Shown piece after piece: positions 4,027 to 30,372 of a DNA stretch of 47,416 nt. The translations under genes and the position numbers were made by a program. How positions within the stretch are numbered: the stretch's first letter is position 1; each line of letters begins with the position of its first letter. The stretch is taken from positions 1-47,416 of the forward strand of contig JAQBZB010000032.1 of NCBI GenBank assembly GCA_027622275.1. The letters are read 5' to 3'. The notes under the pieces are model-generated. The model saw nothing but the letters and a program-made list of their open reading frames with translations. It searched no databases and was not told the origin of the DNA. Source of the DNA: Planctomycetota bacterium. Lineage in GTDB: Bacteria; Planctomycetota; Planctomycetia; Pirellulales; Pirellulaceae.

Positions 4027-6312
4027 ATGGATTCACCACTTACATCGAACCCCCGTTCTGACCTCGAGGTATCGCGGCGCGCGAAAGACGCCGAGAATCG
4101 CTTGGCGGCACTGTCGTCGTTACTCGATTCGATCGACAACCACGCGAACACAGATCCGCTAGCGCCGAAGGCCAAGCCGAGTCCCCACGAGTCGCAGTTG
4201 GTGTTGGCTCGGCTTGGAATGGCGAGCAGCTTGTTCATTGCGTTGCGGGCCAAGCATGCACCGACGGCGGCACATTGCTTGCGAGTCGCTCTTGGAGCGT
4301 CGTCGTGGGCCATGGCGATGAATCTGCCAGAGGAGCTGCGCGACGATATCGAAGTTGCCTCGCTATTGCACGATGTCGGCAAAATTGGGGTCCCGGACCA
4401 CGTATTATCGAAGCCGGGCAAACTCTCGGGCGAAGAATTGCTCTTGATGGAAAGGCACCGACAGCTGGGCTGCGAGATTCTTTCCGGCTGTTGCACGACG
4501 AAGAACGTCCTGGACATCGTGCAATACATCCCCGGCTGGTACGACGGAACGAAACATGGCTTCGACCGGGGAGGAGAAGATCTTCCGCTGGGGGCTCGAA
4601 TGATTGCGGTCGTTGATGCCTTCGATGCGATGACCACCGATCACGTTTACCGCCGGGCCTTGTCGCGTGAGCGAGCCGTTGCGGAATTGTTTGAGTTCTC
4701 GGGGACACAGTTCGATCCACAACTCGTCAAACGCTTTTGCGAGCTGCTAAGTCAAGACCAAGTCCGGTTCACGGAGACGGTCGCTCGTCGTTGGTTACAG
4801 CAGATCAGCGTTGATGCTTCCAATCGATATTGGTCACTTTCCGACGCGACACCAGGCAGCGCTTTGGGCACGCGTCAAACAGAAGCGCCGTATTACGAAC
4901 GGCTGCTCGAGAGCATGCACGACAGCGTGGTGTTCGTGGACGAAAACCTGCACGTCAAGGTATGGAACCGGGCCGCCGAACGCTTAACGGGAATCAGCGG
5001 ACACAGCATCGTCGGCAACACTTGGACGCCGGATCTGGTTCGCTTGAAGGACGAGCGTGGAAACACGATCCCCGACGAAGAGTGTCCGATCGCTCAGGCG
5101 ATGAAATCGGGAACGCAGTCGTTCCGCCGATTATCACTTCTTGGCAGGAGGAAAGAACGCGTTTCAGCAGATGTACATGTCGCGCCTGTCTTGCGGGCGG
5201 ACGGCATCGCACGGGGCGCGGCGGTCATTTGGCACGATGCCTCTTCACAGATTACGTTGGAGGAACGCGTTGAGTCGTTGAACGAGAAAGCAACGCAAGA
5301 TCCCCTGACGAAGTTGTCGAATCGCGCGGAATTCGACCGTGTCCTGGAAGCGTTCGTCAAGAATCACGTTGAACAAGGTGAGCCCTGTGCGATGATCATG
5401 TGTGATATCGATCACTTTAAGAAGATCAACGACGTTCACGGCCATCAAGCAGGCGACGAAGCATTGATCCTGTTTGCAGGCATCCTCCAGGGACACGCTC
5501 GTACCGGCGATCTTGTGGCTCGTTATGGCGGTGAAGAATTCGTCGTTCTTTGTGCCGACTGTGACAACGCGACCGCGACTCGGCGAGCGGACGCGTTGCG
5601 GCGAGCGGTCTCGGAACACGCGCAACCATCGCTCGGCAACAAGTGTGTCACGGCCAGCTTTGGCGTCACGGAAGTTCAAGGGGGCGATACGCCGGAAACC
5701 TTCCTGAATCGAGCCGATCGCGCATTGCTGCAAGCCAAAAGTAATGGCCGGAACATGGTCGTCCAGCTTGGAACGGGGATCTGCGAAGACGAAGGGAATC
5801 CAAAGACTTCAAATTGGCTTGCTTGGTTCCGCGAGTCGCCCGCGGCGGAAGTGCTCTCGCGGCGATTGATGACTGTCGTGCCGATGAAGATCGCGGCTGA
5901 AAAGCTGCGAGGATTCGTTGCCGATCATCATGCTCAAATACTCGAACTCAGCGACAATCGCGTCACGCTGAAGATCGACGAAACACATTCCGCTCTTGCC
6001 AAGCTAGGGAGCGATCGGTCCGTACCGTTTGTCATGGAACTGACCTTCGACGAAGCCGGTGGCGGAACGGGGCCGCGCGGGGTGGTGCTTCAGCAACGGA
6101 CCATCATCCAAGTCGCCATTCGGCCGCGTCGACACCGAGACCGGCGACGACGAGATATGCTGGAGCGGGCGCGGCAGTTGCTGGTCAGCCTCAAGTCGTA
6201 CCTGATGGCTCAGGAGTACATGGAAGATCCACCCGAACCCGAATTCGAAGATTCCCAGGATCAATTCCTGAAGAAGTCGAAGAAGTTCCTTTCCTACTGG
6301 CTGAGTGAGTGA
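4027..6312 (+). CDS. c-di-GMP signalling protein: HD-GYP-like, PAS and GGDEF domains
   Basis: The 761-residue protein (from ATG 4027) carries an HD-GYP-like domain at about residues 70-250, with an intact HD block (LLHDVGKIGVPDHVLSKPG). Its GYP region is degenerate: the family's HHExxDGxGYP is replaced by PGWYDGTKHGFDRGG, although the following LGARMIAVVDAFDAMT is normal. A PAS domain spans about 290-405. A GGDEF domain spans about 415-580 with the active-site GGEEF near 501-505 and CDIDHFKKINDVHGH, so it should make c-di-GMP. About 180 residues of unassigned C-terminal sequence follow, including a very basic patch (RPRRHRDRRRR). The 3'-adjacent flagellin-like gene, 75 bases away, suggests a role in motility. 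A TTG start at 3865 is the alternative and looks less likely. Confidence 0.88.
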   Translation: MDSPLTSNPRSDLEVSRRAKDAENRLAALSSLLDSIDNHANTDPLAPKAKPSPHESQLVLARLGMASSLFIALRAKHAPTAAHCLRVALGASSWAMAMNLPEELRDDIEVASLLHDVGKIGVPDHVLSKPGKLSGEELLLMERHRQLGCEILSGCCTTKNVLDIVQYIPGWYDGTKHGFDRGGEDLPLGARMIAVVDAFDAMTTDHVYRRALSRERAVAELFEFSGTQFDPQLVKRFCELLSQDQVRFTETVARRWLQQISVDASNRYWSLSDATPGSALGTRQTEAPYYERLLESMHDSVVFVDENLHVKVWNRAAERLTGISGHSIVGNTWTPDLVRLKDERGNTIPDEECPIAQAMKSGTQSFRRLSLLGRRKERVSADVHVAPVLRADGIARGAAVIWHDASSQITLEERVESLNEKATQDPLTKLSNRAEFDRVLEAFVKNHVEQGEPCAMIMCDIDHFKKINDVHGHQAGDEALILFAGILQGHARTGDLVARYGGEEFVVLCADCDNATATRRADALRRAVSEHAQPSLGNKCVTASFGVTEVQGGDTPETFLNRADRALLQAKSNGRNMVVQLGTGICEDEGNPKTSNWLAWFRESPAAEVLSRRLMTVVPMKIAAEKLRGFVADHHAQILELSDNRVTLKIDETHSALAKLGSDRSVPFVMELTFDEAGGGTGPRGVVLQQRTIIQVAIRPRRHRDRRRRDMLERARQLLVSLKSYLMAQEYMEDPPEPEFEDSQDQFLKKSKKFLSYWLSE

Positions 6313-12810: not shown

Positions 12811-13722
12811 TCATGTACCGGCCAGCAACAGCTTCGCGGCATCGCCGATCGCGCGGGCCTCTTCTTCGCCAATTTCGCACAGTAGCGGCATTAGTGGACC
12901 CATCGTCGCGATGCCGGACAACGTGACCGCTGTGTGCAAGACACGGACGGGGTTGATGGAATTGCGCAATTCTTCCAGTGCCGAGAAGATCTGGCGAATC
13001 TCTTCGGCTCTCTCGTAATCGCCTGCCTTGATCGCTTGGAGCATCTGCATGGACAGCCGCGGCGCCACGCAAACGCATCCGGACGTAAAGCTGGTCAGGC
13101 CAAAGTCGCGCAGATGCGTGATCGCCGGTTGTTCGCCGATGCCACTGACGATTCGCGATGTTCCGATGGCGTCGACCAACGCGCGGAGGTAATCGTCACT
13201 GGTCGTGTCGTCGCGAACGATCGCGTATTTGATCCAGGACAGCAGCCCATCGTCCATCAATTGTTTGACACGAGCGACATCGATGAATCCGTCGTGCTTG
13301 ATGTAAAGAACTGCTGGCCGGTTCACCTTTTCGACGAAGTGGCGGACGGCGGTGGCCACACCAGTGGGCGTCGCCACATCACGTGTCGGCAGAATCATGG
13401 CCGTGGGAAACGGCATGTCGCGCAGGATCGCCGCCTGGTCCATCATCATGCCGTAGCCGGGGCCGACGGATGGAATCACCAGCGACTGCTCGCCTGCGGT
13501 CTCCGCCAGCATGTCCACGAGATCCGCGTACTCGCTCAGGGCGATGTGGTACAGAATCGCGTTGCCGCCGTACAGCAGCGTCGTCACGCCACCGGCTTCA
13601 AGATGGCGGATCTGCTTCTCATTTTCGGCGCTGTTGAGCGACAAGTCGGGATTCCGCGCCAACGGTGGTACGGCAATGACGGAGGCGGCGAGCGTCTCTG
13701 AAGTAATTGTGTTGGTGTTCAT
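12811..13722 (-). CDS. DapA/KDG-aldolase-family enzyme
   Basis: A 303-residue Schiff-base-forming (beta/alpha)8 aldolase or dehydratase of the dihydrodipicolinate synthase superfamily. The Schiff-base lysine is Lys165 (LLSWIKYAIVR) and the conserved Tyr of the family is Tyr140 (AVLYIKH). The GG-containing loop (LYGGNAILYHI) replaces the usual GTTGE, hence the substrate differs from lysine biosynthesis. It lies 50 bases downstream of the mandelate-racemase-type dehydratase gene, fitting a dehydratase-aldolase pair that makes and splits a 2-keto-3-deoxy acid. That pairing is inference. It is the last gene of the minus arm of the divergent cluster. Confidence 0.85.
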   Translation of the reverse strand: MNTNTITSETLAASVIAVPPLARNPDLSLNSAENEKQIRHLEAGGVTTLLYGGNAILYHIALSEYADLVDMLAETAGEQSLVIPSVGPGYGMMMDQAAILRDMPFPTAMILPTRDVATPTGVATAVRHFVEKVNRPAVLYIKHDGFIDVARVKQLMDDGLLSWIKYAIVRDDTTSDDYLRALVDAIGTSRIVSGIGEQPAITHLRDFGLTSFTSGCVCVAPRLSMQMLQAIKAGDYERAEEIRQIFSALEELRNSINPVRVLHTAVTLSGIATMGPLMPLLCEIGEEEARAIGDAAKLLLAGT

Positions 13723-13772
13723 CGTAATGGCGACAATCCCTGTGATGTGTGTGGGAGCATGGTGGTTCGGTT

Positions 13773-14885
13773 CTATTTGACTCGAAATTCGTGAATGATG
13801 TCTTCGTCCAATTCGATCCCCAGCCCAGGACCGGCGGGCACCGGTACCCGGCCATTCACCAGCGGCGGCAGATTCTTGACCAGTTTTCGCATGAGCGGCG
13901 AGGGACGTAAACAGTACTCAACCAAATCACCGTTGGGAACCGAGGCCATCCAGTGCAGCGACGCACAGAGATTGATGCCTGTGCTGAAGCAGTGCGGCAC
14001 CGCACGGCGTCCGTGCGTTTGGCACATGTCCGAGACACGGCGGCAGACGGTCAAGCCGCCGCAAAACGCGACGTCGGGCTGGACGACATGCACACCGCGC
14101 TCGATCAGGTCTTCAAAGTCATAGTGCGTCACATCGCCTTCACCGGCCGCGATTGGAACGGGCGAGATCGGACACAACGCGGCGTAACCTTTACGATCAT
14201 CCTGCGCGAGCGGTTCTTCGAGCCAGGCGATGCCCAACGGGGCGAGCAACTCGGCGCGAGCCACGGCCGTTGGCAAATCCCACGCGTGTCCTGCGTCGAC
14301 CATCAGATCACGTTCTTCACCGAGCACGTCACGGGCTGCTTGAACGTGGGCCAGGTCGGTCGCCGCGTCTTTCCCGAACGGCCCCCAGCCGAATTTGGCC
14401 GCCGTCAAACCGAGTTCGACAAACTCGCGGGCCAGCGCAGCCGTATCGTCCGGCGTGTCGCCGAACAAGACGCTGGCGTAAGCCCGCACGGTGGTGCGCT
14501 GGGCTCCGCCGAGCAATTCATAAATCGGCTTGCCTTCCGCCTTGCCTTTGATGTCCCACAACGCAATGTCCGCGCCGCTGATGGCGTGAATCGCCGCGCC
14601 GCGACGACCGTAGCGATTCGTTTCGTAATACATCTTCTCCCAGAGGCGTTGCGGATCGAGCGGATCTTCGCCGATCAGAATCGACGTCAGGCCGTGCCGC
14701 CGCGCGGCCGATCGCGGCGCTTCGAAGCAGGCCTTGCAGACATACGACTGGCTGGTGACTTCGCCAATGCCGGTAATGCCGGCATCGGTTTCAATCCGCA
14801 CCACGAGCACATCAAGCGTCCCGTCCGGGATCGCCTCGACAACCGGGACTCGCAAATGAATCGGTTCGACGGCGGTAATCTTCAT
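13773..14885 (-). CDS. Mandelate racemase-like enolase-superfamily dehydratase
   Basis: A 370-residue enzyme that probably dehydrates an acid sugar or related alpha-hydroxy acid. The metal ligands are visible as Asp197 (VDAGHAWD), Glu223/224 (WLEEPL) and Glu249 (AAGEGD). The His-Asp dyad of the mandelate racemase subgroup is Asp271 (QPDVAFCGG) with His298 (PHCFSTGI). The first catalytic lysine is probably Lys164 in AAKFGWGPFG; that block resembles acid-sugar dehydratases. The start overlaps the MlrC stop as ATGA (14882-14885), so the two are translationally coupled. The adjacent aldolase supports an acid-sugar or amino-acid-derived substrate, but none can be named. Confidence 0.86.
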   Translation of the reverse strand: MKITAVEPIHLRVPVVEAIPDGTLDVLVVRIETDAGITGIGEVTSQSYVCKACFEAPRSAARRHGLTSILIGEDPLDPQRLWEKMYYETNRYGRRGAAIHAISGADIALWDIKGKAEGKPIYELLGGAQRTTVRAYASVLFGDTPDDTAALAREFVELGLTAAKFGWGPFGKDAATDLAHVQAARDVLGEERDLMVDAGHAWDLPTAVARAELLAPLGIAWLEEPLAQDDRKGYAALCPISPVPIAAGEGDVTHYDFEDLIERGVHVVQPDVAFCGGLTVCRRVSDMCQTHGRRAVPHCFSTGINLCASLHWMASVPNGDLVEYCLRPSPLMRKLVKNLPPLVNGRVPVPAGPGLGIELDEDIIHEFRVK

Positions 14886-16354
14886 GGCGCGTTGTTCTCG
14901 AAAGGTGAGGGGACTTCTTCGTCCAGCGGGAAGATGGGCCGCACACAGTTTGTGAACGGCAGCGAGCGGAGGTTGGCGCTGGTCGAGCCAGGGACATCCA
15001 CCGGTACGATCAAGCTGGCGATCGATTCGTACCAGGTCCGAAAGCCGTTCGGCGATTTTACAACAACCAGATCGAAGTCGACAGGATTCAAGCCGTGGCA
15101 TTCGAACACGCGACGCCCGACGACGTAAACCGGCCGCTCGGTAACCAAGACCGTAACCGGACCAATCTGCAGGACTGCCACACGACCGCTGCGCGCGGTG
15201 GTGCCGTCTTCGTAAGAAAAACCTCCGTCGTGCAGACTGACGACACGCGCAGTGACCGGCAACGGCGTGAATCGAACTGGATCGCGAGTTCCGCCGAGCG
15301 TCACCTTGATCGTCGCCCCAACTCCGGCGGCGAATGCCTGCTCGATGGCCGGGGCATCGACAATCGGTACGAGCGACTTTTTGGAGAATCCCGACGACAA
15401 CAGTCCTTGCAAGATGGCGTTGCTGTCTCCCGCCGCGCCGCTGGCTGTGGCGTCCGCGGCGTCGGAGAAGACGACTAGGCCGCGTGCGTGACCGGCCTGT
15501 TGAATCGCATCTTCCAGCGATGTCAACGCTGCCTGAAACAGTTCGCGGTGTTCCCACATGAATCGCCCGATGCGTTCTGCGTCCGCGCGAGCACGCGGCA
15601 AATCACCGTCGGTCGTGACCAACACATTCGATTGGAGCGCCGGCACATCCGTGAACGCATTGCCGATGATCACGCCGGCCGCAAGTCCGCCGTCGGACGC
15701 TTCAACCGCTTGGCACATGCGAATCGCTTCACCGAAACGCCCCGTCGCCGTCAAGAGTTCATCGCCACGCACCAACATGGGCAACTGGACACGAGCGACA
15801 GTTGGATGCAGCTTCCCGCCGAGCAAATCGATCAGGTTGCGTGCGGCCCGCTGACCGGTCTCGTAGTGGTCGGTGTGCGGGTACGTGTGATAGGGGACCA
15901 AGATGTCGGCGGCTTGGATCATGCGATCGGTCAGCACGGCGTGCAAGTCCAACGACGCGACGATCGGCCGGTTGGGAAATCGCTTGCGAAGTTCCGCCAG
16001 CAGCAGACCCTCCGGGTCGCCTTCGCGCTCGCCGGCCATCGCTCCATGCAGGCACAGATAAAGTCCGTCGACTTCCGGGTGGTCGTCTGCCGCGAGGAGC
16101 ATTTCATGGATCAAACGATCGAGGTCGGTCTGAGCGACCCGGCCTCCCGAAACCGCCGAAGCCGCGACGGTCGGCGCGACGTCGATGCCAGCCTCGGCAA
16201 ATAGGTCGAGTGCTCCGGCAAGTTCCGTCCGCGTGGCACGGAATGCGTCGATCACTTCTTGTCCGACGTACACCGAGAAGTCGTCGTAGCGTGTCGGCGC
16301 GGGATTGAACGTGGCTGTCTCTTGTTTTAATTCGCCGATGAGGATGCGTGGCAT
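14882..16354 (-). CDS. MlrC-type M81 metallo-enzyme
   Basis: A 490-residue protein of the MlrC (microcystinase C) / M81 family, whose founding member hydrolyses the linear products of microcystin breakdown. Likely metal-binding blocks are HGAM (103-106), SLDLHAVLTDRM (135-146) and the YHTYPHTDHYETG stretch (155-167). The C-terminal region has the second-domain signature with SDAADATASGAAGDSNA. Its presence beside a dehydratase, aldolase and amidohydrolase is typical of planctomycete catabolic clusters, where it may cleave an amide bond of an uncharacterised substrate. It overlaps the downstream dehydratase by ATGA. The real activity is unknown. Confidence 0.85.
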   Translation of the reverse strand: MPRILIGELKQETATFNPAPTRYDDFSVYVGQEVIDAFRATRTELAGALDLFAEAGIDVAPTVAASAVSGGRVAQTDLDRLIHEMLLAADDHPEVDGLYLCLHGAMAGEREGDPEGLLLAELRKRFPNRPIVASLDLHAVLTDRMIQAADILVPYHTYPHTDHYETGQRAARNLIDLLGGKLHPTVARVQLPMLVRGDELLTATGRFGEAIRMCQAVEASDGGLAAGVIIGNAFTDVPALQSNVLVTTDGDLPRARADAERIGRFMWEHRELFQAALTSLEDAIQQAGHARGLVVFSDAADATASGAAGDSNAILQGLLSSGFSKKSLVPIVDAPAIEQAFAAGVGATIKVTLGGTRDPVRFTPLPVTARVVSLHDGGFSYEDGTTARSGRVAVLQIGPVTVLVTERPVYVVGRRVFECHGLNPVDFDLVVVKSPNGFRTWYESIASLIVPVDVPGSTSANLRSLPFTNCVRPIFPLDEEVPSPFENNAP

Positions 16355-16380
16355 GAGCGGTGTTGTTTCGTTGTTGTGTC

Positions 16381-16504
16381 AAAGTAGCCGTCACGCTCCG
16401 CCGTGACGAGCCTGCCAGTTTGAGGTCAAGCCACAATCAGACGTCTTCTTGGGTGAAACATCTTGTGGGTAAGGCTCATCACGACGGAGCGTGATGGCCA
16501 CTTT
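16381..16504. repeat. Inverted repeat spanning the end of the amidohydrolase gene
   Basis: Arms 16381-16413 and 16472-16504 match as reverse complements at 29 of 33 positions around a loop of about 58 bases. The right arm overlaps the last codons and stop (16479) of the minus-strand amidohydrolase, so the palindrome supplies that protein's C-terminal residues. It may also act as a transcription terminator or attenuator between the two minus-strand genes. Confidence 0.7.
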
Positions 16505-17663
16505 CCGCCAGATGCCTCATGCGCAATCCGCCGCCACCCGGCAAGATCTCGCCGCGACGGATCGTTGTTGCGGCTGTCAGCAGTTCATGGCCAACGCGTG
16601 TTTGCCGATAACTGTCAGTGAATTCGAACCGGCCTTCGTGCCGCTCTAAGACTGCGATGTCCGCGATCGTCCCGACGCGCAAGGTGCCGATTTCGTCCGC
16701 GCGTTTGAGAATCTGTGCCGGGCGGGTTGTCGACATCTCGATGACGCGCTCGATCGGCACGCCGAGCATCAGGAACTTGCTCATCGTCGTCGGCATGTCG
16801 TAAACCGGGCCGTGGATATTCTTGGTGTGCAAGTCGGTGCTGATCGTGGTCGGCTCGAAACCGTCGTCGAGCGCCGCTTGGACCACTTCCCATTGGAAGC
16901 TGCCATAACCGTGCCCCACGTCAAAAATCACGCCACGTTCCGCCGCGTCTCGGATGGCTGGATAGATTTTTCCCGCGTCGTCGGTCACCCGCGTACTGCC
17001 GCCTTTGAAGCAATGCGTGATGCAGTCGCCGGGTGCGAGCGCTTCGGCGAGTTCCGGGATCGGCATCGGGCTCTCGCCGATATGCACCATCAGCCACGTC
17101 TCGGATTCGCGCGCGGCGCGAATGGCGGCGCGTAAATTCGACCAGCCTTGCTCGCCTTCGCCGATGATGTGCTTGCCGGCGCGAATCTTCACGCCGACGG
17201 CTACATCGCCATGTTGACGAATCGTCCGGACAACGCCATCCGGATCGGCGTAGCGCGGGTCGAGCAATTCACCCAGGTTGGCCGCAACGAGGCCGATGCA
17301 CGAGAGATTCACTAGCGCCAAGAGCTGGGTCCGAGCCCGGTCGATGCCGTCACGCCGGAAAGCGGCGAAGTTGTACGAGCCTGCGGTCCCGGCGTCGAGC
17401 AGTGTCGTAACGCCGCCGGCGGGACACAACGGGTCGGGGTCCAGCCCGAACGGCGAGTGCGTGTAGGCATGAACATGCAAGTCGATCAGGCCAGGCACAA
17501 CCAACAAGCCACGGGCATCGATCACGTGATTCGCTTCATAATCCGGCAGTTCGTCCGCCAACGCCGTGATCCGATCGCCGGTCACTGCCACATCGCCAGG
17601 ACCGCTAATTCCCTGCGAAGGATCGATGACCGTGCCGCCGCGAATGAGAACGTCGCAATGCAT
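16479..17663 (-). CDS. Amidohydrolase/deacetylase-family metallohydrolase (Atu3266/EF0837 type)
   Basis: A 394-residue metal-dependent hydrolase of the amidohydrolase superfamily. The metal site is legible: HxH at His63/His65 (LIDLHVHAYTH), the carboxylated lysine at Lys159 (GVKIRAGK), His194 (MVHIGESP), His217 (CITHCFKG) and the catalytic Asp277 (STDLHTKNI). This is the family of the Agrobacterium and Enterococcus proteins known as Atu3266 and EF0837. Those occur next to SelA-like PLP enzymes of the DgaE type, exactly as here across the divergent promoter. It probably hydrolyses an N-acyl-amino or ester bond. The C-terminal residues come from an inverted repeat. Confidence 0.88.
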   Translation of the reverse strand: MHCDVLIRGGTVIDPSQGISGPGDVAVTGDRITALADELPDYEANHVIDARGLLVVPGLIDLHVHAYTHSPFGLDPDPLCPAGGVTTLLDAGTAGSYNFAAFRRDGIDRARTQLLALVNLSCIGLVAANLGELLDPRYADPDGVVRTIRQHGDVAVGVKIRAGKHIIGEGEQGWSNLRAAIRAARESETWLMVHIGESPMPIPELAEALAPGDCITHCFKGGSTRVTDDAGKIYPAIRDAAERGVIFDVGHGYGSFQWEVVQAALDDGFEPTTISTDLHTKNIHGPVYDMPTTMSKFLMLGVPIERVIEMSTTRPAQILKRADEIGTLRVGTIADIAVLERHEGRFEFTDSYRQTRVGHELLTAATTIRRGEILPGGGGLRMRHLAESGHHAPS

Positions 17664-17705
17664 GGGTGAATTGCCTCGGGAATTGTGGGATGATTGATAG
17701 TCGTT

Positions 17706-17745
17706 GTTCGCTCCGCGAACAAAACGTCAGGTTCGCGGAGCGAAC
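17706..17745. repeat. Short perfect inverted repeat in the divergent promoter region
   Basis: GTTCGCTCCGCGAAC (17706-17720) and GTTCGCGGAGCGAAC (17731-17745) are exact reverse complements separated by ten bases. It lies between the amidohydrolase and the SelA-like gene, which are transcribed away from each other. It could be an operator for the whole divergent cluster, or a dispersed palindrome; the sequence alone does not decide. Confidence 0.6.
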
Positions 17746-17802
17746 CACGCCAATCATTGAACGCGATGGCTGATCGCGATGCAAGGCGAAGAGAAGCTAA
17801 CG

Positions 17803-18915
17803 ATGGACCTGTTTCAAAAGTACGGATTGACACGCGTGATTAACGCTTGCGGCAAGATGACGCATCTGGCGGGCGCGATCGTCTTGCCGGAGATCGCGGC
17901 GGCGGCCAGCGAGTCGCTCAATCATTTCTTCATTCTGGACGAACTGCAAGCTGCCGCCGGGCGAATCATCGCCGAGACAACCGGGGCCGAGAGCGGTTGT
18001 GTGACGGCATGCACTTCGGCCGGTATCACGTTGAGCGTCGCCGCGTGCATGACCGGCGCGGACATCGCCAAGGTCTTGCAGCTTCCCGACACGACCGGCC
18101 TGCCTCATCGTGTGCTAATTCAGAAGGGCCATTGCATCAATTATGGTCACCCGATTACGCAAGCGATCCGTCTATCGGGCGCGACCGCGGTCGAAGTGGG
18201 TGTCGTGAATCGTTGCCTTCCCGAAGAGTTGCGGCATGAGCTTGGCAAAGGGGACGTGGCGGCAATCGTTCATGTCGAATCGCATCACACGGTCCGATAC
18301 GGCTGGGTGCAACTCCCGGAAGTTGTGCAGCTCGCTGACGAATTCAAGGTGCCGGTGATCGTCGATGGTGCCGCGCAAGACCAACGGTTGCGTGAACTTA
18401 TCAGCACCGGCGCGGCGCTCGTGCTGACCAGCGCTCACAAGTATCTCTGCTCGACCACCGGCGGCATCGTGGCAGGGCGCAAAGACTTGGTCGACGCCGT
18501 CTCCTTGCAGAACAGAGGCATTGGCCGCCCGATGAAGGCCGGGAAAGAAGCCATCATTGGCGCGATGGCGGCGTTGCAATTTCGTGGTCGCCAAGACATG
18601 AGTGCTTGGACCGCCGAACAAGATCGTAAGGTCGCCGTGATCTTGGATCGCCTGAAAGACATTCCGGGGCTCACGCTGAGCGTTGATCCCGATCCCAATG
18701 GGTGCCCGTTTTCCCGCGTCCGCCTGACGCCCGTTGCGGACGCCGGCCAGTATTCCATGCTTTCATTGCGGGATGCGTTGGCTGCGGGGAATCCCACGAT
18801 CGTCTTGCGAGCGCACCACATCGACGAAGGTTATGTCAACATTGATGCGATCGAGCTGACCGACGACGAGATCGAGTTTGTGTGTCAGCGAATTCGCGAA
18901 GTCTTCGCGGCGTGA
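17803..18915 (+). CDS. SelA/DgaE-like PLP-dependent enzyme
   Basis: A 370-residue fold-type I PLP enzyme of the SelA-like group (DgaE family), some members of which deaminate D-glucosaminate phosphate. The PLP lysine is Lys213 (TSAHKYLCSTTGG) and the cofactor-binding aspartate is Asp188 (VIVDGAA). The first residues (LTRVINACGKMTHLAG) match the family's N-terminal block. The start is taken at ATG 17803; an ATG at 17779 is in frame and adds MQGEEKLT. It faces the amidohydrolase gene across a short promoter region with a palindrome, an arrangement known for this pair. It may deaminate or eliminate from an amino acid freed by the hydrolase; this is inference. Confidence 0.85.
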   Translation: MDLFQKYGLTRVINACGKMTHLAGAIVLPEIAAAASESLNHFFILDELQAAAGRIIAETTGAESGCVTACTSAGITLSVAACMTGADIAKVLQLPDTTGLPHRVLIQKGHCINYGHPITQAIRLSGATAVEVGVVNRCLPEELRHELGKGDVAAIVHVESHHTVRYGWVQLPEVVQLADEFKVPVIVDGAAQDQRLRELISTGAALVLTSAHKYLCSTTGGIVAGRKDLVDAVSLQNRGIGRPMKAGKEAIIGAMAALQFRGRQDMSAWTAEQDRKVAVILDRLKDIPGLTLSVDPDPNGCPFSRVRLTPVADAGQYSMLSLRDALAAGNPTIVLRAHHIDEGYVNIDAIELTDDEIEFVCQRIREVFAA

Positions 18916-18946
18916 CCGCATTTCACCTTTCAGAAACGACACTCTC

Positions 18947-20329
18947 ATGCAGCCGCCCAACCGACGACGCTTTCTTCGCCAAGCGGGAATCGCATCTTGC
19001 CTTGGCGGTCCGTTGTTGTCTTCCGCCGGTGCGATATCGCCGCTCTTCGCGGCTCCCGATAGTAAACGGCCGCGAGTTGCCGCCATCTTTACGGTGTTGC
19101 GTTTTCGCAGCCACCCCTACAACATCCTCGAAAACTTCCTGGGGCCGTATTACTTCAATGGCAAGTTGACCGATCCCGGCGTCGACGTCGTGTCGTTTTA
19201 CGCCGATCAGTTTCCCGATGACGACATGGCCCGCGAAGTGTCCCAACGCTTCAATATCCCGCTGTATGCGTCCATCGACGAGGCGCTTTGCGTCGGCGGC
19301 AGGAAGCTGGATGTCGATGCCGTGTTAATCATCGGTGAACATGGCGATTATCCGTACAATGCACGCGGGCAGCACCTGTATCCACGCAAGCGGTTCTTCG
19401 ACGAAGCGGTGGCCGTGATGCGTCGCGAGAATCGATTCTTGCCCGTGTTCAACGACAAGCACCTGTCGTATCGCTGGGATTGGGCGAAGGAGATGTACGA
19501 CATGGCGCGGGCGCATGAGATGCCGCTGTTGGCTGGCAGTTCGGTTCCGTTGGCACAACGCAAGCCGCCGCTGGACTTGCCTGACGGAGCGGAGATCGAA
19601 GAAGCCGTCTCGATCCACGGCGGCGGACTGGAATCGTACGACTTTCATGCACTCGAGGTGCTGCAATCGATTGTCGAATCCCGACAAGGCGGCGAGACCG
19701 GCGTTGCGCGGATCGAGTTGTTGTATGGCGAGAAGCTCGAGCGTGCGCGGGCGGCGGGGCGTTGGTCGCAGCCGCTTGTCGATGCCGCCATGGACGCCGA
19801 GCAAGCCATGCAGGCGAGCCGTCAAGATCGACCAAGCACCGGCGTGTTTCAAGCCCAGCCCAGCCAGCCCCCGCCGCCTGGCCCGGAAGGACCGCACGCG
19901 ATCGCTATCGAATACAAAGACGGTTTGCGCGCGACGGTACTGAAGATCGGCTCAAGTTCGGACCGCTGGAACTTTGCCTGTCGTCTGCGCGGCGAAACGA
20001 CGCCTCGGGCAACGGCGTATTTCAACAGCCCGTGGGGTAACCGCGGCCTGTTCAAAGCGTTGTCTCACGCAATTCAACAGCACTTCATCCAGCGTGTCGA
20101 ACCTTATCCCGCTGAACGGACGTTGTTGACCACGGGTATGGTCGAGGCGGTCATGCGGTCGTTTGAACAGCAGGGCCAGCCAATCGAAACGCCTCACTTG
20201 GAGATCGCCTATCAGGCCAAACCGTGGAACCAATTCCGCGAATCGGGCCGGACTTGGGACATCATCACCGCCGAGACGCCTCAACCCGCCACGTTCCAAC
20301 CTCGCTCATTCGCCGAACTGCAACGCTAA
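18947..20329 (+). CDS. Tat-exported protein of unknown function
   Basis: The 460-residue protein begins with a twin-arginine signal (RRRFLRQAG) and a hydrophobic stretch ending in a likely AFAA-type cut site (SPLFAAPD), so it is probably exported folded. I see no clear catalytic motif. Regions such as DVDAVLIIGEHGDYPYNARGQ suggest a Rossmann-like N-terminal half, as in Gfo/Idh/MocA-related proteins, but the glycine-rich nucleotide loop is not evident. A Pro-rich linker lies near residues 300-310. It starts 31 bases after the SelA-like gene, and 13 bases separate it from the MFS carrier, so the three are almost surely one operon. Likely a partner in the same catabolic pathway. Confidence 0.75.
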   Translation: MQPPNRRRFLRQAGIASCLGGPLLSSAGAISPLFAAPDSKRPRVAAIFTVLRFRSHPYNILENFLGPYYFNGKLTDPGVDVVSFYADQFPDDDMAREVSQRFNIPLYASIDEALCVGGRKLDVDAVLIIGEHGDYPYNARGQHLYPRKRFFDEAVAVMRRENRFLPVFNDKHLSYRWDWAKEMYDMARAHEMPLLAGSSVPLAQRKPPLDLPDGAEIEEAVSIHGGGLESYDFHALEVLQSIVESRQGGETGVARIELLYGEKLERARAAGRWSQPLVDAAMDAEQAMQASRQDRPSTGVFQAQPSQPPPPGPEGPHAIAIEYKDGLRATVLKIGSSSDRWNFACRLRGETTPRATAYFNSPWGNRGLFKALSHAIQQHFIQRVEPYPAERTLLTTGMVEAVMRSFEQQGQPIETPHLEIAYQAKPWNQFRESGRTWDIITAETPQPATFQPRSFAELQR

Positions 20330-20342
20330 CCGCGAAGCTCCC

Positions 20343-21653
20343 ATGCCCATCGACGACCATCGCCCGACACACTTCCGCTGGAACGTCTTTGTGCTGGCGA
20401 GCGGCACCTCCTGGCTGTTGTATCTGCATCGTTATATCTTCGGGCTGATCAAACCCGTTCTGGCCGAAGAGTGGGGCCTCGGCAACGACGAACTCGGATT
20501 GCTCGACAGCGCCTTTTCCGTCGCTTACACAGGGTTTCAGATTCCATTGGGCGTGGCGACCAACGCCTTTGGCGTCCACCTGATGTTGACGTTCATGCTC
20601 GTCGCGGGAGCGGTCGGGCTGGGGCTGCACGCGTGGGCACCGACCAGCAAGTACTTGTGGGCGGCCCGCGCGACCATGGGGCTGGGCCAGTCGGCCGTGT
20701 TTGCCGCGCAAAGCGAGATCACGAGGGCGTGGTTCCCGGTTTCGGTGCGGACGACCGTGCAGGGATGGGTGGGCGTCTTCTTCGCGCGGTTCGGTGGGCT
20801 GTCGGCTAATCTGCTTCTCGGCTCCGTGTTGCTCGGCGTGTTCGAGCTGCCGTGGCGAACCGTCGTCTACGCGATGGCGGCAGTGGGGCTTGGCCACGCG
20901 ATTCTGTTCGCGCTGTTGTTTCGAAATTCGCCGCGCAACCATCCACGCGTGAACGACGCCGAGGCGGCGTTGATCGAAGGAAGCGACGGGAAGCCGTTGA
21001 AGGCGGAGCCTCGCACGGGCATCCGCGATCTGTTTCGACGCATGAGCCTGCGTTCCATCGGCAACGTCCTGATGCTCAACCTGCAGACAATTCTCAGCAC
21101 GCTGGCGGACAATGTATTTTCTGCGTGGATTCCTCTGTTCCTGTCGCAGGTGCATGGATTGAAGTTCAAGGAAATGGGGTTCTACGCTTCCCTGCCCTTG
21201 CTCGGCGGTGCCCTGGGCGGGGCGTTCGGCGGTTGGTTGAACGATAAGATGATCGCGCGGACTGGCAGCCTGCGCTGGTCGCGGGTAGCGGTGGGAGCAA
21301 CGGGAAAGGGGATCGCCGGCGTCTTGTTGCTAACTTCCTTGTTGTGGTATGACCAACCGCAGTCGTTCTGCGTGATGCTGTTCTTTGTCAAGTTCTTTTC
21401 CGACTGGAGCCTCGTCACAACCTGGGGTTGTGTGACCGACATCGGCGGCCGGAGTTCGGCGACCGTCTTTGCCTACAACAATTCCGTGGCGGGGATCGGA
21501 TCCATCGTGGGATCGGCGCTGTATGGGTTCGAGTCCGAATACATCAGTTGGGTGTCGGTTTTTGTGACAGCGGCCGCGGCCTATTTCGTTTGCGCGTTCA
21601 CATGGTTCCTGATCAATTGCGAGCTTCCAATCATCAGTTCGGAGTCGGAATGA
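20343..21653 (+). CDS. MFS transporter of the sugar-acid/anion:cation symporter type
   Basis: A 436-residue carrier with about 12 hydrophobic segments. The start region (LYLHRYIFGLIKPVLAEEW and LGLLDSAFSVAYTGFQIPLG) is characteristic of the hexuronate and related anion:cation symporters of the major facilitator superfamily. It likely imports the substrate for the catabolic enzymes encoded around it. The ATG at 20343 is chosen over a long in-frame extension that overlaps the preceding gene. Two blocks, VRTTVQGWVGVFFARFGG and SRVAVGATGKG, correspond to cytoplasmic loops. The substrate cannot be inferred more closely. Confidence 0.88.
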   Translation: MPIDDHRPTHFRWNVFVLASGTSWLLYLHRYIFGLIKPVLAEEWGLGNDELGLLDSAFSVAYTGFQIPLGVATNAFGVHLMLTFMLVAGAVGLGLHAWAPTSKYLWAARATMGLGQSAVFAAQSEITRAWFPVSVRTTVQGWVGVFFARFGGLSANLLLGSVLLGVFELPWRTVVYAMAAVGLGHAILFALLFRNSPRNHPRVNDAEAALIEGSDGKPLKAEPRTGIRDLFRRMSLRSIGNVLMLNLQTILSTLADNVFSAWIPLFLSQVHGLKFKEMGFYASLPLLGGALGGAFGGWLNDKMIARTGSLRWSRVAVGATGKGIAGVLLLTSLLWYDQPQSFCVMLFFVKFFSDWSLVTTWGCVTDIGGRSSATVFAYNNSVAGIGSIVGSALYGFESEYISWVSVFVTAAAAYFVCAFTWFLINCELPIISSESE

Positions 21654-21683
21654 GGGCGGGCCGACCACCATGAGGAGATCGTC

Positions 21684-22118
21684 GTGGACGTCGCCGCGCG
21701 CGATGGTAAACTTCGCACAGTCATGGATGAGGAATGTGGCGATAGCATGAAGAACCGCTACGACGTTGCCGTCACTGGTGCCGGAATCGTTGGCCTCGCG
21801 CACGCGTGGCTGGCGGCGCGTGACGGCGCAAGGGTGGTCGTTCTTGAACGCGACCCGCGCGCCGTTGGCGCATCGATTCGCAACTTTGGCATGATTCAGA
21901 TACACCCATTTCTTAACGGCAATGGTCGTGCATCAAGAATACTTTGGGCCTGGGGGCTTGTGCGGTTTGGCGTACCAATTCAAGGCCGCATTCACTTGCG
22001 TCCAGATCCGCCATACAACGACGTTATGCGCGAAGCAATGCGTGGAAACTACGGCCCGCTCGCGTTGCAAATCCTGCAACACCTCTCAGTTCACTCGCCA
22101 GCCCAGCAGTTGCCATAG
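21684..22118 (+). pseudogene. Chimera: truncated FAD oxidoreductase joined in frame to a Fic-domain tail
   Basis: This 144-codon frame starts as an FAD-dependent oxidoreductase of the D-amino-acid or ThiO-like family: the dinucleotide loop [17 protein letters not shown] and the VVVLERD strand are intact. After RNFGMIQ it switches, near 21900, to the end of a Fic protein. The Fic motif [13 protein letters not shown] is followed by [12 protein letters not shown] and a short helix tail. The Fic signature HPFx(D/E)GNGR has Asn where an acidic residue is usual. Neither half is complete, so I call it a pseudogene or relic of a deletion. An oxidase of this type would fit the operon, so the cluster has probably lost its oxidase. 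Whether it is translated is unknown. Confidence 0.7.
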
Positions 22119-22365
22119 ACGCGTTGCGATTCAACGGCACTAGCATCTCGGCCAACTACCCTCCCCTCATTGTTCAGCCACTACCGACACTCGAAATCTG
22201 CCGCCGCGTGAAGAGCGCTGGGTAATCGATGCTAGCTGCAAAGGCCGCTTCATTCGTCCTTTGCGGAATGATCCTGATGTTCCTCACGCGTGGCAGCCGA
22301 TAACCAAGACGACGCTAGATCTCTAGCGATCCGCCGGAACCTCTTGCGCGACAAGGAACGTTGCA

Positions 22366-23859
22366 ATGTTCGTCATCGTCAGCGATCTGCACCTGAACGA
22401 TAAGACAACCGGCTCGCCGTTGGACTCTGGGGCATTTCAGATTTTCGCCGAGCGGCTGCATGAAACAGCCATTCGCGCGTCCTGGCGGGCAGGTGGAAAC
22501 TATCGACCGATCGAACGGCTTGATTTAGTCTTGTTGGGCGATGTGCTGGACCTGACCGGCACGTTGCATTGGGCGTCTGGAGATGTCCGCCCCTGGCACG
22601 ATTCCAGCTCGCCTGGCGTCTCGGATGCCGTCGCATCGATCGTCGACAACATCCTGGCACGAAACAGCGAGGCGTGCGATGTCTTGCGTGCGATCTCGAC
22701 AGATGGCGCGATTCGCATTCCCCCAGCAACGCAAGACGGGCAACCAGCCTACGACGCCGAGGGCGTGCCGGTGGCTGTGCGGACGGTTTACATGGTCGGC
22801 AATCACGATTGGTTGCTGCATCTGCCCGGAACCCGGTACGACACGATTCGGCAAAAAGTGACTCATCGCTTGGGGCTGGCAAATATCTACAGTGCGCCGT
22901 TTCCCCACGATCCCTACGAATCGGATGAACTGCTGGCGACGATGCGGAGGCATCGCGTCTTTGCCAGGCACGGCGACATCTTCGATCCCATCAACTTCAG
23001 CGAAGACCGCGACAGCGCCAGCCTGGGCGACGCCATTGTGATCGAGCTGATCACTCGCTTTACCTTGGAGATCGAACAGCACCTCGGTGCGGACCTGCCG
23101 CCAAGCGTCTTGAACGGTCTGCGCGAACTGGACCACATCCGCCCGATTCTGCTGGCCCCAGTTTGGATCGAAGGTTTGCTCGAACGATCCAACGTCAAAC
23201 CAGCCGTCCGCAAAGAGATCAAGCGGACGTGGGACCGGCTGGCGGACGAGTTCCTGCAACTGTCGTTGGTGCAAGACCAGGATTCCTGGAGCCCGTTTGA
23301 TATCGTGGACGGGCTGGAACGCGCATTGAAATTCAGCAAACGTTTGTCGCTTGGCTGGGCCGGAAAGGTCACCAGTTGGCTGCACAGTCTTCGTGGGGCC
23401 GAGAGCGGTTCGTATTTCCAGCACGCACTGGCGGAGCAGGATTTTCGGAATCGCCGAGCCCGCAACATTGTCTACGGTCACACGCACCACGCGGAAGCCA
23501 TTCCGCTGGACGCCAGCTATGCGGACGGTTATGTTCTGAATCAGATGTATTTCAATTCGGGAACGTGGCGACGCGTGCTCGATCAGACACGTTGGACGTC
23601 CAGCGAACACGAGTTTATTCCGACCGAGTCGTTATCGATTCTTTCATTCTTCTTCGGCGATGAGCGGGGCGGACGCCCGTTTGAATCCTGGACAGGGATG
23701 CTGGCAACGGTGAGCGACTCGGCAACGCATCGCGTTGATGCGGGGCGAGCGCCTCATGCCTCCGAACAACCGCTTTCGGCATCAAGAGTACCTGTCCGAG
23801 CGCCTCACTTCCGACGTTCATCTGCTCCGAGCCGATCCCCCACCCGCGAGACTTACTGA
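22366..23859 (+). CDS. Calcineurin-like metallophosphoesterase
   Basis: A 497-residue metallophosphoesterase. The metal and catalytic blocks are present: SDLHLND at residues 6-12, LLGDVLDLTG (about 55-64), GNHDWLL (about 145-151), ARHGDIFDP (about 204-212) and YGHTHHAEA (about 370-378), in the order expected of the calcineurin-like fold. A helical insertion of roughly 150 residues sits before the last block. The last 40 residues, rich in Ser, Arg and Pro, overlap the start of the next gene and look like read-through. The real end may be shorter, or a frameshift may have occurred. The substrate is unknown. With the downstream alpha/beta hydrolase it forms an uncharacterised pair. Confidence 0.84.
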   Translation: MFVIVSDLHLNDKTTGSPLDSGAFQIFAERLHETAIRASWRAGGNYRPIERLDLVLLGDVLDLTGTLHWASGDVRPWHDSSSPGVSDAVASIVDNILARNSEACDVLRAISTDGAIRIPPATQDGQPAYDAEGVPVAVRTVYMVGNHDWLLHLPGTRYDTIRQKVTHRLGLANIYSAPFPHDPYESDELLATMRRHRVFARHGDIFDPINFSEDRDSASLGDAIVIELITRFTLEIEQHLGADLPPSVLNGLRELDHIRPILLAPVWIEGLLERSNVKPAVRKEIKRTWDRLADEFLQLSLVQDQDSWSPFDIVDGLERALKFSKRLSLGWAGKVTSWLHSLRGAESGSYFQHALAEQDFRNRRARNIVYGHTHHAEAIPLDASYADGYVLNQMYFNSGTWRRVLDQTRWTSSEHEFIPTESLSILSFFFGDERGGRPFESWTGMLATVSDSATHRVDAGRAPHASEQPLSASRVPVRAPHFRRSSAPSRSPTRETY

Positions 23860-24916
23860 CGACTATCGTCAGCGGATGCGAGCCGTTGGCCGCACCCTTC
23901 GTGCCGCGGATGTACGGGCGATCTATCTGGTTCATGGTTCGTTCGTCGGAGCCGATGCGTTTGGGTTGTTCCGCGAAGTTGCCCGCGTTTCATCCGCCGC
24001 CGCCGAACCCCTGCGACGTCTGCAAAAGCAGTTGTTGGACGCGCTGGCGAAAGACGCGGGGAACTACACGGTCGAGTTCGCGAAGGAGTTCGAAGAAGCT
24101 ATTGCGATCGACGGCGAAAAGCCTCTTCCCGTCCGGCTGTTGAATTGGTCGAGCGAGAACCATCACATTGGCCGAGCCGACGGCGCAATCCGGCTGATCG
24201 CTGCACTTCTCGACGATCATGCGGCGAGTGAGGGCCGGGTTCTCGTGTGGGGGCACAGTCATGGCGGGAACGTCTTGGCGCTGGTCACGAATCTGCTGGG
24301 AGGAGATGCAAGTCTCCGTCAGGAGTTCTTTCACGCCTGCCGGTCCTACTATCGCTGGCCGGGGCTGGAACGAGTTGATATGCCCGAATGGCCCCGCGTT
24401 CAAGGACTGCTGGAGAACGATTCGATCCAATCGCGCGCCGCTCGGCTCGATCTGGTCACCTTCGGAACGCCCGTCCGCTATGGCTGGGAAACCAACGGCT
24501 ACGGTAATTTGCTGCACTTCATCCATCATCGCCCTGTTCCTGGCCAAGACCCGGCGGTCGCTGAGTTCCCCCGAGACGTGGAAGCAGTATTGACGGCCCG
24601 GTTCGGCGATTACATCCAGCAGTTCGGCATCGCGGGAACGAACTTTGCCCCCGCCGCATGGTCGTGGCGGGCTGCGTTGGCGGACGTGCGATTGGGCCGT
24701 CTTTTACAGCCTGGGATTCCGGCGCGAACGTTGTTGGAGCGATTGAAACTCGGCACGCGCACGCACGATGAAGGCACGAACCTGCTCGTCGATTACGGAC
24801 TGCCAACGGGTCACGTGGGGCAACATCTCGCGGGCCATGCTGTTTACACGCGATCAGATTGGTTATTGTTTCACGCAGAGGAAGTCACTCGCCGGTTCTA
24901 TCGCAATACGGGATAA
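23756..24916 (+). CDS. Alpha/beta hydrolase-like protein
   Basis: A protein of about 386 residues with an alpha/beta hydrolase outline. The first strand and oxyanion loop are IYLVHGSFVGADAFG, and the nucleophile elbow is GHSHGGN (from VLVWGHSHGGNVLAL), with Ser as the nucleophile. A late His is probable near VGQHLAGHAVYT. It begins inside the 3' end of the metallophosphoesterase, overlapping by about 100 bases. The start could also be ATG 23735. Overlapping, same-strand order suggests tight translational coupling. The substrate is not evident; a lipase or peptidase-type esterase is plausible. No signal peptide is seen. Confidence 0.72.
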   Translation: MPPNNRFRHQEYLSERLTSDVHLLRADPPPARLTDDYRQRMRAVGRTLRAADVRAIYLVHGSFVGADAFGLFREVARVSSAAAEPLRRLQKQLLDALAKDAGNYTVEFAKEFEEAIAIDGEKPLPVRLLNWSSENHHIGRADGAIRLIAALLDDHAASEGRVLVWGHSHGGNVLALVTNLLGGDASLRQEFFHACRSYYRWPGLERVDMPEWPRVQGLLENDSIQSRAARLDLVTFGTPVRYGWETNGYGNLLHFIHHRPVPGQDPAVAEFPRDVEAVLTARFGDYIQQFGIAGTNFAPAAWSWRAALADVRLGRLLQPGIPARTLLERLKLGTRTHDEGTNLLVDYGLPTGHVGQHLAGHAVYTRSDWLLFHAEEVTRRFYRNTG

Positions 24917-24919
24917 CTC

Positions 24920-25249
24920 ATGACAGGCATCATTCAAGTCACGACGACCGTTTCCGATCAAGCTGACGCCGAGCGGATCGCCGCCTCGCTCGTTGCCCAA
25001 AAACTCGCCGCCTGCGTCCAGGTCTCCGGACCGATCGAAAGTACCTATCGCTGGAAAGGCCAGATCGAGACCTCGCAGGAATGGGTTTGTGCCATCAAGA
25101 CTCGCGACGAGCTGTTCGCCGAAGTCGAACAAGTCATCCGCGGTTTGCATTCCTACGGCGAACCAGAAATCATGGCGGTACCGATCACCGCGGCGAGTGC
25201 CGGGTATCGCGATTGGCTGTTGTCCTCGGTGAAGGCATTGGACCGTTGA
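24920..25249 (+). CDS. cutA: CutA-type divalent-cation tolerance protein
   Basis: A 109-residue small trimeric protein. The family core is visible: VTTTVSDQADAERIAASLVAQKLAACVQ at the start (read in two pieces), YRWKGQIETSQEWVCAIKT in the middle, and PEIMAVPI near the end. CutA is widespread and linked to copper tolerance in enterobacteria; its precise role elsewhere is not settled. The gene begins only a few bases after the upstream hydrolase ends, so it probably shares a transcript. Length and motifs are standard. Confidence 0.93.
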   Translation: MTGIIQVTTTVSDQADAERIAASLVAQKLAACVQVSGPIESTYRWKGQIETSQEWVCAIKTRDELFAEVEQVIRGLHSYGEPEIMAVPITAASAGYRDWLLSSVKALDR

Positions 25250-25276
25250 ACGAGGCACAACCTCCGGCCAAATGGC

Positions 25277-25708
25277 ATGCAGCCTTTTCATATCGTCATC
25301 CGAGCGATCCCGAACAGAGAGTTGCCGACGCAATCGATCACCTTTGCCGGCCGCGACATTGACGCGTTGATTGTTCCGCCCGCCCTGCAGGCAACGCCGC
25401 TGGGAGTGAGCTTCGAACAGGCCGCCGATGCCTTGGCGACATTTCCGCGGATGCACGTCGAGCCCGATGGTTCGTTCGTTTGGGTTTCGTCCTCGGAAGA
25501 TGAAGAGGCCTGGCAAGTCGACGGGAATCTGTACGACCGTGACGGCAGCTTGATCGCGATCGATCTGAAAGGAACTTGCGATCAGACGAAGGTCGTGCTG
25601 TTGCTCGACGTCTTTCGCGCTGCTGGCCGCGAGTTGATGATCGAAGTTGTGCGCGATGCGACATTCATTCGCGAACGCGACTTTCTCGAATCGCTGCCGA
25701 AGTTGTGA
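25277..25708 (+). CDS. Conserved protein of unknown function
   Basis: A 143-residue acidic, mostly beta protein with no recognised motif. It has strands such as MQPFHIVIRAIPN and FAGRDIDALIVPP, a central acidic stretch (SSSEDEEAWQVDG), and a helix-strand end (VVLLLDVFRAAGRELMIEVV). It follows cutA by 27 bases on the same strand, so co-transcription is likely. I do not recognise its family. Confidence 0.6.
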   Translation: MQPFHIVIRAIPNRELPTQSITFAGRDIDALIVPPALQATPLGVSFEQAADALATFPRMHVEPDGSFVWVSSSEDEEAWQVDGNLYDRDGSLIAIDLKGTCDQTKVVLLLDVFRAAGRELMIEVVRDATFIRERDFLESLPKL

Positions 25709-26842: not shown

Positions 26843-26994
26843 GGGCAAACACCAGGAACATCTAACGCAGACGGTGGTCGCGCCCTTGGCTGAGATGGCG
26901 ATGCCGCGCAAAGGCTGCGGCCATTTCAACTTCGCTAACCCGCATTTCTCATAACATGGCTAGCGCGAGGCCCCCAGATTTGTCATAACTTGGG

Positions 26995-30313: not shown

Positions 30314-30372
30314 GTACGATGGCCATCCAAGGCCGTCGTGAAGCAATCGACGGCCTTGGAAGGCCATCGTAC
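30314..30372. terminator. Palindrome between the transglutaminase and the ATP-grasp gene
   Basis: A 25-base arm at 30314-30338 pairs with 30348-30372 (perfect or nearly so; core AAGGCCGTCG/CGACGGCCTT) around a nine-base loop. It lies after the transglutaminase stop at 30381 (minus strand). It would act as a terminator or mRNA-stabilising hairpin. On the minus strand the right arm is followed by AAAAAACGC, not T-rich, so read-through into the ATP-grasp gene is likely. Confidence 0.55.

Follow-up and report, generated by a model that had tools for sequence, protein, structure and literature searches.

An in-frame join between fragments of an FAD oxidoreductase gene and a Fic gene in a Pirellulaceae genome, probably a rearrangement scar

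PbfD enzymes convert N-methyl-AEP to phosphonoacetaldehyde by oxidation and, for the two tested, act on AEP as well; phosphonoacetaldehyde is hydrolysed by PhnX (PMC10590968). As described there, A. baumannii PbfD1 carries the annotation TIGR03364, the commonest association of pbfD genes other than pbfD1 is with phnX alone, and homologs occur in several phyla, within the PVC group mostly in Planctomycetota (PMC10590968). The locus described here combines part of such a gene with part of a gene of the ~216-amino acid Fic/DOC type (PF02661), with other examples in G131 and G114, two genomes of the family, and on the viral contig L197. The consensus of the Fic active-site motif is HPFx(D/E/N)GN(G/K)R. 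Gene-fragment fusions and pseudogenes that stem from illegitimate recombination are ordinary in bacteria. No gene fusion between a Fic domain and an FAD-dependent oxidoreductase was found in the literature, and a search on planctomycete pseudogenes, gene fusion, and microhomology returned no report of such a join among the matches listed.

The window, that is, the whole stretch of DNA analyzed, is 47,416 nucleotides in length (contig JAQBZB010000032.1 of assembly GCA_027622275.1). An initial annotation had described, at 21684–22118, an FAD-binding start passing into a Fic motif near 21900 within one unbroken frame, with both parts incomplete. Matches to PF01266, TIGR03364, and PF02661, along with identity to Fic C-termini, bear out this description, and aligned relatives place the switch at the ATT codon 21894–21896. 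The frame joins ~50 codons from the start of a pbfD-type gene to ~73 codons from the end of an unrelated Fic gene without a change of reading frame, in the following context.

12811–21673 (no strand assigned): left flank, collinear with C37, a contig of the same-genus genome G001; it holds the cluster of amidohydrolase, DgaE-like, Tat-signal protein, and MFS genes
20331–21653 (+): MFS transporter gene immediately preceding the fused frame (the longer frame 20163–21653 matches PF07690 at E 1.8e-37)
21684–22118 (+): fused open frame with a GTG start, 144 codons (144 amino acids), open without a break
21747–21893 (+): 5' part of an FAD oxidoreductase gene of the pbfD/TIGR03364 type ([21 protein letters not shown]...RNFGM), by PF01266, TIGR03364, and DNA identity to 88 relatives
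21894–21896 (+): junction codon ATT (Ile), the sole bases that both parents can supply, judged from relatives
21897–22118 (+): 3' part of a Fic gene ([11 protein letters not shown]...) with its stop codon at 22116–22118, by Fic C-terminus identity, alignment, and PF02661
22119–22249 (no strand assigned): spacer without a match in the compared loci of G001 and G002, with a second derived join somewhere inside
22250–25697 (+): right flank, coding for metallophosphatase-like, hydrolase-like, and CutA1 proteins and a small ORF, collinear with C172 of G001 and C889 of G002

The natural start of the fused frame is probably ATG 21747, because position 1 of TIGR03364 falls at residue 26; the product would have 123 amino acids. 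The N-terminal part matches the DAO family (PF01266; residues 27–75, profile positions 1–50 of 353, E 3.6e-12) and contains the dinucleotide-binding motif GAGIVG (residues 32–37). The best NCBIfam family for the frame is TIGR03364 (HpnW_proposed; 76 bits, E 2.9e-21), with an alignment that nominally spans profile positions 1–104 of 365, across the join; DNA identity stops at the join. Judged from sequence, the match to the FAD family is not due to chance. The frame shares the first ~50 residues with the PbfD/TIGR03364 FAD-dependent N-methyl-AEP/AEP oxidases, including the motif [11 protein letters not shown] as well as GASIRNFGM, but it differs from them in being a start only: its score lies under the cut-off of 285.1, and the full oxidoreductase domain (365 positions) is not present, just the ~50 codons from the ATG.

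On the Fic side, the whole frame matches PF02661 at residues 60–89 (profile positions 61–90 of 93; 24.4 bits, gathering score 24). Only positions 73–90 lie in the tail, which scores 20.2 bits alone, and the complete Fic core (93 positions) is not present. The active-site motif is intact (HPFLNGNGR, residues 74–82). Codons 72–144 are 57, 55, and 58% identical to the C-termini of Fic proteins from three family genomes (G071, G131, and G114, respectively; E 1.1e-24 to 5.7e-17), matches of a strength that would not arise by chance. The tail shares an IHPFxNGNGR-type motif with the ~216-amino acid Fic proteins, but their ~140 N-terminal residues, including most of the Fic core, are absent from the fused frame. 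The whole proteins in G131 and G114 have 215 and 216 amino acids, and the window retains their last third. Searching with the 73 codons from 21897 (E ≤ 0.01) gave matches in 11 of 241 family genomes, namely the genome itself, the three strong cases, and seven more with weak matches (E from 5.7e-4 to 0.007). At this threshold there was no match in G002, and the one in G001 was weak and lay on a different contig.

The source of the Fic fragment may be mobile. A viral contig in IMG/VR (L197, 3578–4237) codes for a 219-amino acid Fic relative with 52% identity to the tail, and this gene lies upstream of one for a terminase large subunit (phrog_38, E 3.2e-48), which suggests that the ~216-amino acid Fic type may be carried by phages or prophages. 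Third-position GC is 0.54 in the Fic part, as against 0.70 in the FAD part and 0.68–0.78 in the three neighboring genes measured; over 74 codons, this difference is only suggestive. Four plasmid records matched a whole Fic relative (L150), all at 27.5%, and searching the PDB by sequence with a whole Fic relative as query returned Fic structures (best 3cuc, E 1.3e-5). Three other Fic genes of the same genome exceed the Pfam cut-off (on C206, C210, and C129); the fused-protein query gave a Fic-side match to that on C206 only (35%, E 0.62), and so the tail was not copied from these genes, which we rejected as its parent.

Several observations were made on the Fic relatives themselves. The Fic gene of G071, the nearest relative by score (L149, 248–899), appears frameshifted when read by eye, with its N- and C-terminal parts in different frames. 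G131 and G114 have in common a three-gene set (L150, 3742–5113, and L151, 5591–7020) in which two small proteins are encoded upstream of the ~216-amino acid Fic protein. The first has 131 and 161 amino acids in the two genomes (50% identical over 121) and the second 119 and 104 (35% over 54); none of the four matches a Pfam family significantly, nor do the 131- and 119-amino acid proteins match one in NCBIfam. The set is possibly a toxin-antitoxin-like unit.

The position of the join was determined from relatives of each parent. FAD relatives (88 distinct sequences) were picked by GIVGLAHAW, a motif whose end lies 84 bases ahead of the join, and Fic relatives (4 distinct sequences) by a motif beginning at 21918. 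DNA identity of the FAD relatives to the window is 0.78 at 21867–21893 and 0.23 at 21897–21941; for the Fic relatives it is 0.24 at 21843–21890 and 0.75 at 21894–21917. The base at 21893 is common to 0.68 of the FAD sequences and to none of the Fic sequences, and that at 21897 to all 4 Fic sequences and 1% of the FAD sequences. The Met codon 21891–21893 is not universal among FAD relatives (0.65 at 21891 and 0.68 at 21893). This sharp change in both sets locates the switch at about ATT 21894–21896, and relatives picked by motifs at the join give the same identity switch. Judged from these relatives, the parents can share at most 3 nucleotides at the join. So short a shared sequence is typical of illegitimate recombination and is far shorter than the overlap required for a k-mer assembler to misjoin two loci. 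Recombination between repeats was considered and rejected: the only direct repeat found in 21600–22400 has 15 nucleotides at 87% identity (21801 and 22285), with neither copy at the join.

The two flanks of the fused frame are separate loci in G001, on contigs of 207 kb (C37) and 54 kb (C172), and interior in both. The left flank aligns to C37 in three blocks (12821–13726, 13780–17785, and 17803–21673; 77–81% nucleotide identity), with seven proteins 74–90% identical, and the upstream MFS transporter is 81% identical to its G001 ortholog. The right flank has 77% nucleotide identity to C172 and 80% to C889 of G002, and in both genomes its upstream neighbor, an open frame, spans ~1,370 codons. 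At least two joins are thus derived in the window's lineage, one at 21894–21896 and one within 22119–22249. Separately, G001 has a 363-amino acid frame between its amidohydrolase and DgaE-like genes (L152, 6621–7712), presumably enolase-superfamily-like, without a counterpart at window positions 17785–17803.

An arrangement of this kind could also arise if the assembler or a chimeric read had linked, at about 21895, two loci that lie far apart in one genome. The assembly is a draft of 555 contigs (96.2% complete, 4.05% contaminated), the flanks lie on different, interior parts of G001, and repeats are found at contig starts elsewhere in the assembly. We nevertheless regard such an artefact as unlikely. 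Both flanks are 77–81% identical to same-genus genomes, so that this is no cross-species chimera; the overlap of at most 3 nucleotides is short for a misjoin; and no match to the missing 3' part of pbfD turned up elsewhere in the genome.

The initial annotation had held that an FAD oxidase here would fit the catabolic cluster and that the pathway had probably lost a step. By family, the FAD gene belongs instead to a phosphonate (AEP) module and not to the amidohydrolase/DgaE-like cluster itself, which the module partly adjoins in G001. There, the MFS gene is directly followed by genes for a VOC protein, HpnZ (TIGR03366, 383 bits, cut-off 328.1), PhnX (TIGR01422, 315 bits, cut-off 220), and an MFS transporter that we take to be UhpC-type, NCBIfam having given no match. 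G001 is the sole relative with part of the module beside the cluster, and it has no TIGR03364 protein over threshold. The neighborhood of TIGR03364 genes was drawn from 80 loci kept out of 169 stretches encoding a relative (269 matched the pattern), some of them clipped by contig ends. Relatives of the G001 HAD hydrolase (PhnX) occur nearby in 55 of these loci, those of its UhpC-type MFS transporter in 37, and those of its alcohol dehydrogenase (HpnZ) in 34; all three are present in 26 loci and none of them in 15. From the one genome G001 and these frequent neighbors, we infer that pbfD stood at this locus in the ancestor.

The module appears lost from the window's genome, and it is the module (pbfD, phnX, hpnZ, and the uhpC-type transporter) rather than a single step that was not found. 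No intact TIGR03364 gene was detected, since the 13 matches are all under cut-off and none goes past profile position 221 of 365; nor was a PhnX found at E ≤ 1e-10, or an HpnZ over the TIGR03366 cut-off (best 150 bits). The VOC-hpnZ-phnX-uhpC stretch of G001 has no DNA match in this genome, the matches among the best 40 of 70 candidates starting at query position 4075, past these genes. As the assembly is a draft and only the best candidates were scored, loss of the whole module is probable. TIGR03364 exceeds its cut-off in 118 of 241 family genomes, so that about half retain the oxidase, and in none of three genomes of the genus (the window's own genome judged on the best 7 of 59 candidates). 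The fusion points to the probable loss, in this lineage, of an AEP utilization module next to the cluster. TIGR03364 matches with in-frame stops were also seen in three family genomes (G072, C83:16137–16856; G182, C269:2733–3467; G022, C122:14485–15372), and decay of this oxidase may recur in the family.

We conclude that the fused frame is most likely a non-functional rearrangement scar and not a new protein. In the ancestor, a phosphonate module with pbfD, phnX, hpnZ, and a uhpC-type transporter would have adjoined the amidohydrolase/DgaE-like cluster, and the metallophosphatase gene would have acquired a Fic gene as its upstream neighbor. Breaks in pbfD and in this Fic gene, joined by illegitimate (non-homologous) recombination, would then have removed or displaced the remainder of both genes and of the module, the frame being left open by chance. 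Staying in frame across a join has a one-in-three prior and calls for no selection. The initial annotation's alternative of a relic left by a deletion is favored as to the relic; a simple local deletion does not by itself explain the arrangement, because the flanks are separate loci in G001. Such a scar is ordinary in kind. As in other gene-fragment fusions and pseudogenes, both genes are truncated and unrelated to each other, they have minimal sequence in common where they meet, and the flanks come from separate loci; the difference is that the frame happens to persist across the join. Among the observations that count against a scar, neither part of the frame contains stops or frameshifts, so that decay is not visible, and the whole Fic parent was not found in the genus.

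The other possibility raised initially was a new chimeric protein, which could act, for example, as a truncated regulator or small binding protein. The open frame, the intact GxGxxG-type and HPFLNGNGR motifs, the probable ATG, and the co-directional MFS gene upstream are compatible with this. Each half, however, is without most of its fold, with only ~50 FAD-domain residues and PF02661 positions 73–90 of 93 left. An AlphaFold2 model of the 123-amino acid product (single sequence without an alignment) had a mean pLDDT of 44.8 and no confident fold, and no promoter- or terminator-like sites were detected in 21500–22500, both weak evidence. A functional chimera is therefore very improbable, and one that is expressed and kept, such as the Fic C-terminal part on a beta-alpha-beta dinucleotide-binding cap, still more so.

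Recurrence of the fusion was sought with 21747–22115 as the query in 396 genomes of the order, sampled from a larger group, with up to 11 best candidates per genome. Matches at E ≤ 1e-10 were found in 79 genomes. Only the window's own genome matched the whole query (272.8 bits), and the other 78 reached at most 71.8 bits. That highest value belongs to G131 and is on the Fic side (residues 44–116); the remaining 77 are on the FAD side, beginning at query residue 1–8 and scoring at most 70.7 bits. Three FAD-side matches extend past residue 100 (G084, G167, and G168), and all three are full-length TIGR03364 proteins. Among the 80 kept loci, some align to the query end (for example L033, 12–144, 41%), and L033 goes on as an FAD enzyme. 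A protein family with this domain order was accordingly rejected, there being no second case in the 396 sampled genomes. The case is mostly a caution: two fragments that each carry a motif and meet in frame look like a new domain architecture, yet this join behaves as a one-off scar.

Two repeats occur elsewhere in the window. A ~60-nucleotide repeat at 26933–26992 is internal here and has other copies 8–11 bases from the starts of contigs C78, C236, C310, C362, C470, and C478, so that this repeat seems to break the assembly elsewhere. At 30314–30372 is a near-perfect hairpin of ~60 nucleotides (DNA fold –31.4 kcal/mol, z –9.9), which we take to belong to a REP-like family and which occurs at no fewer than ~30 places in the genome (best 40 of 299 candidates).
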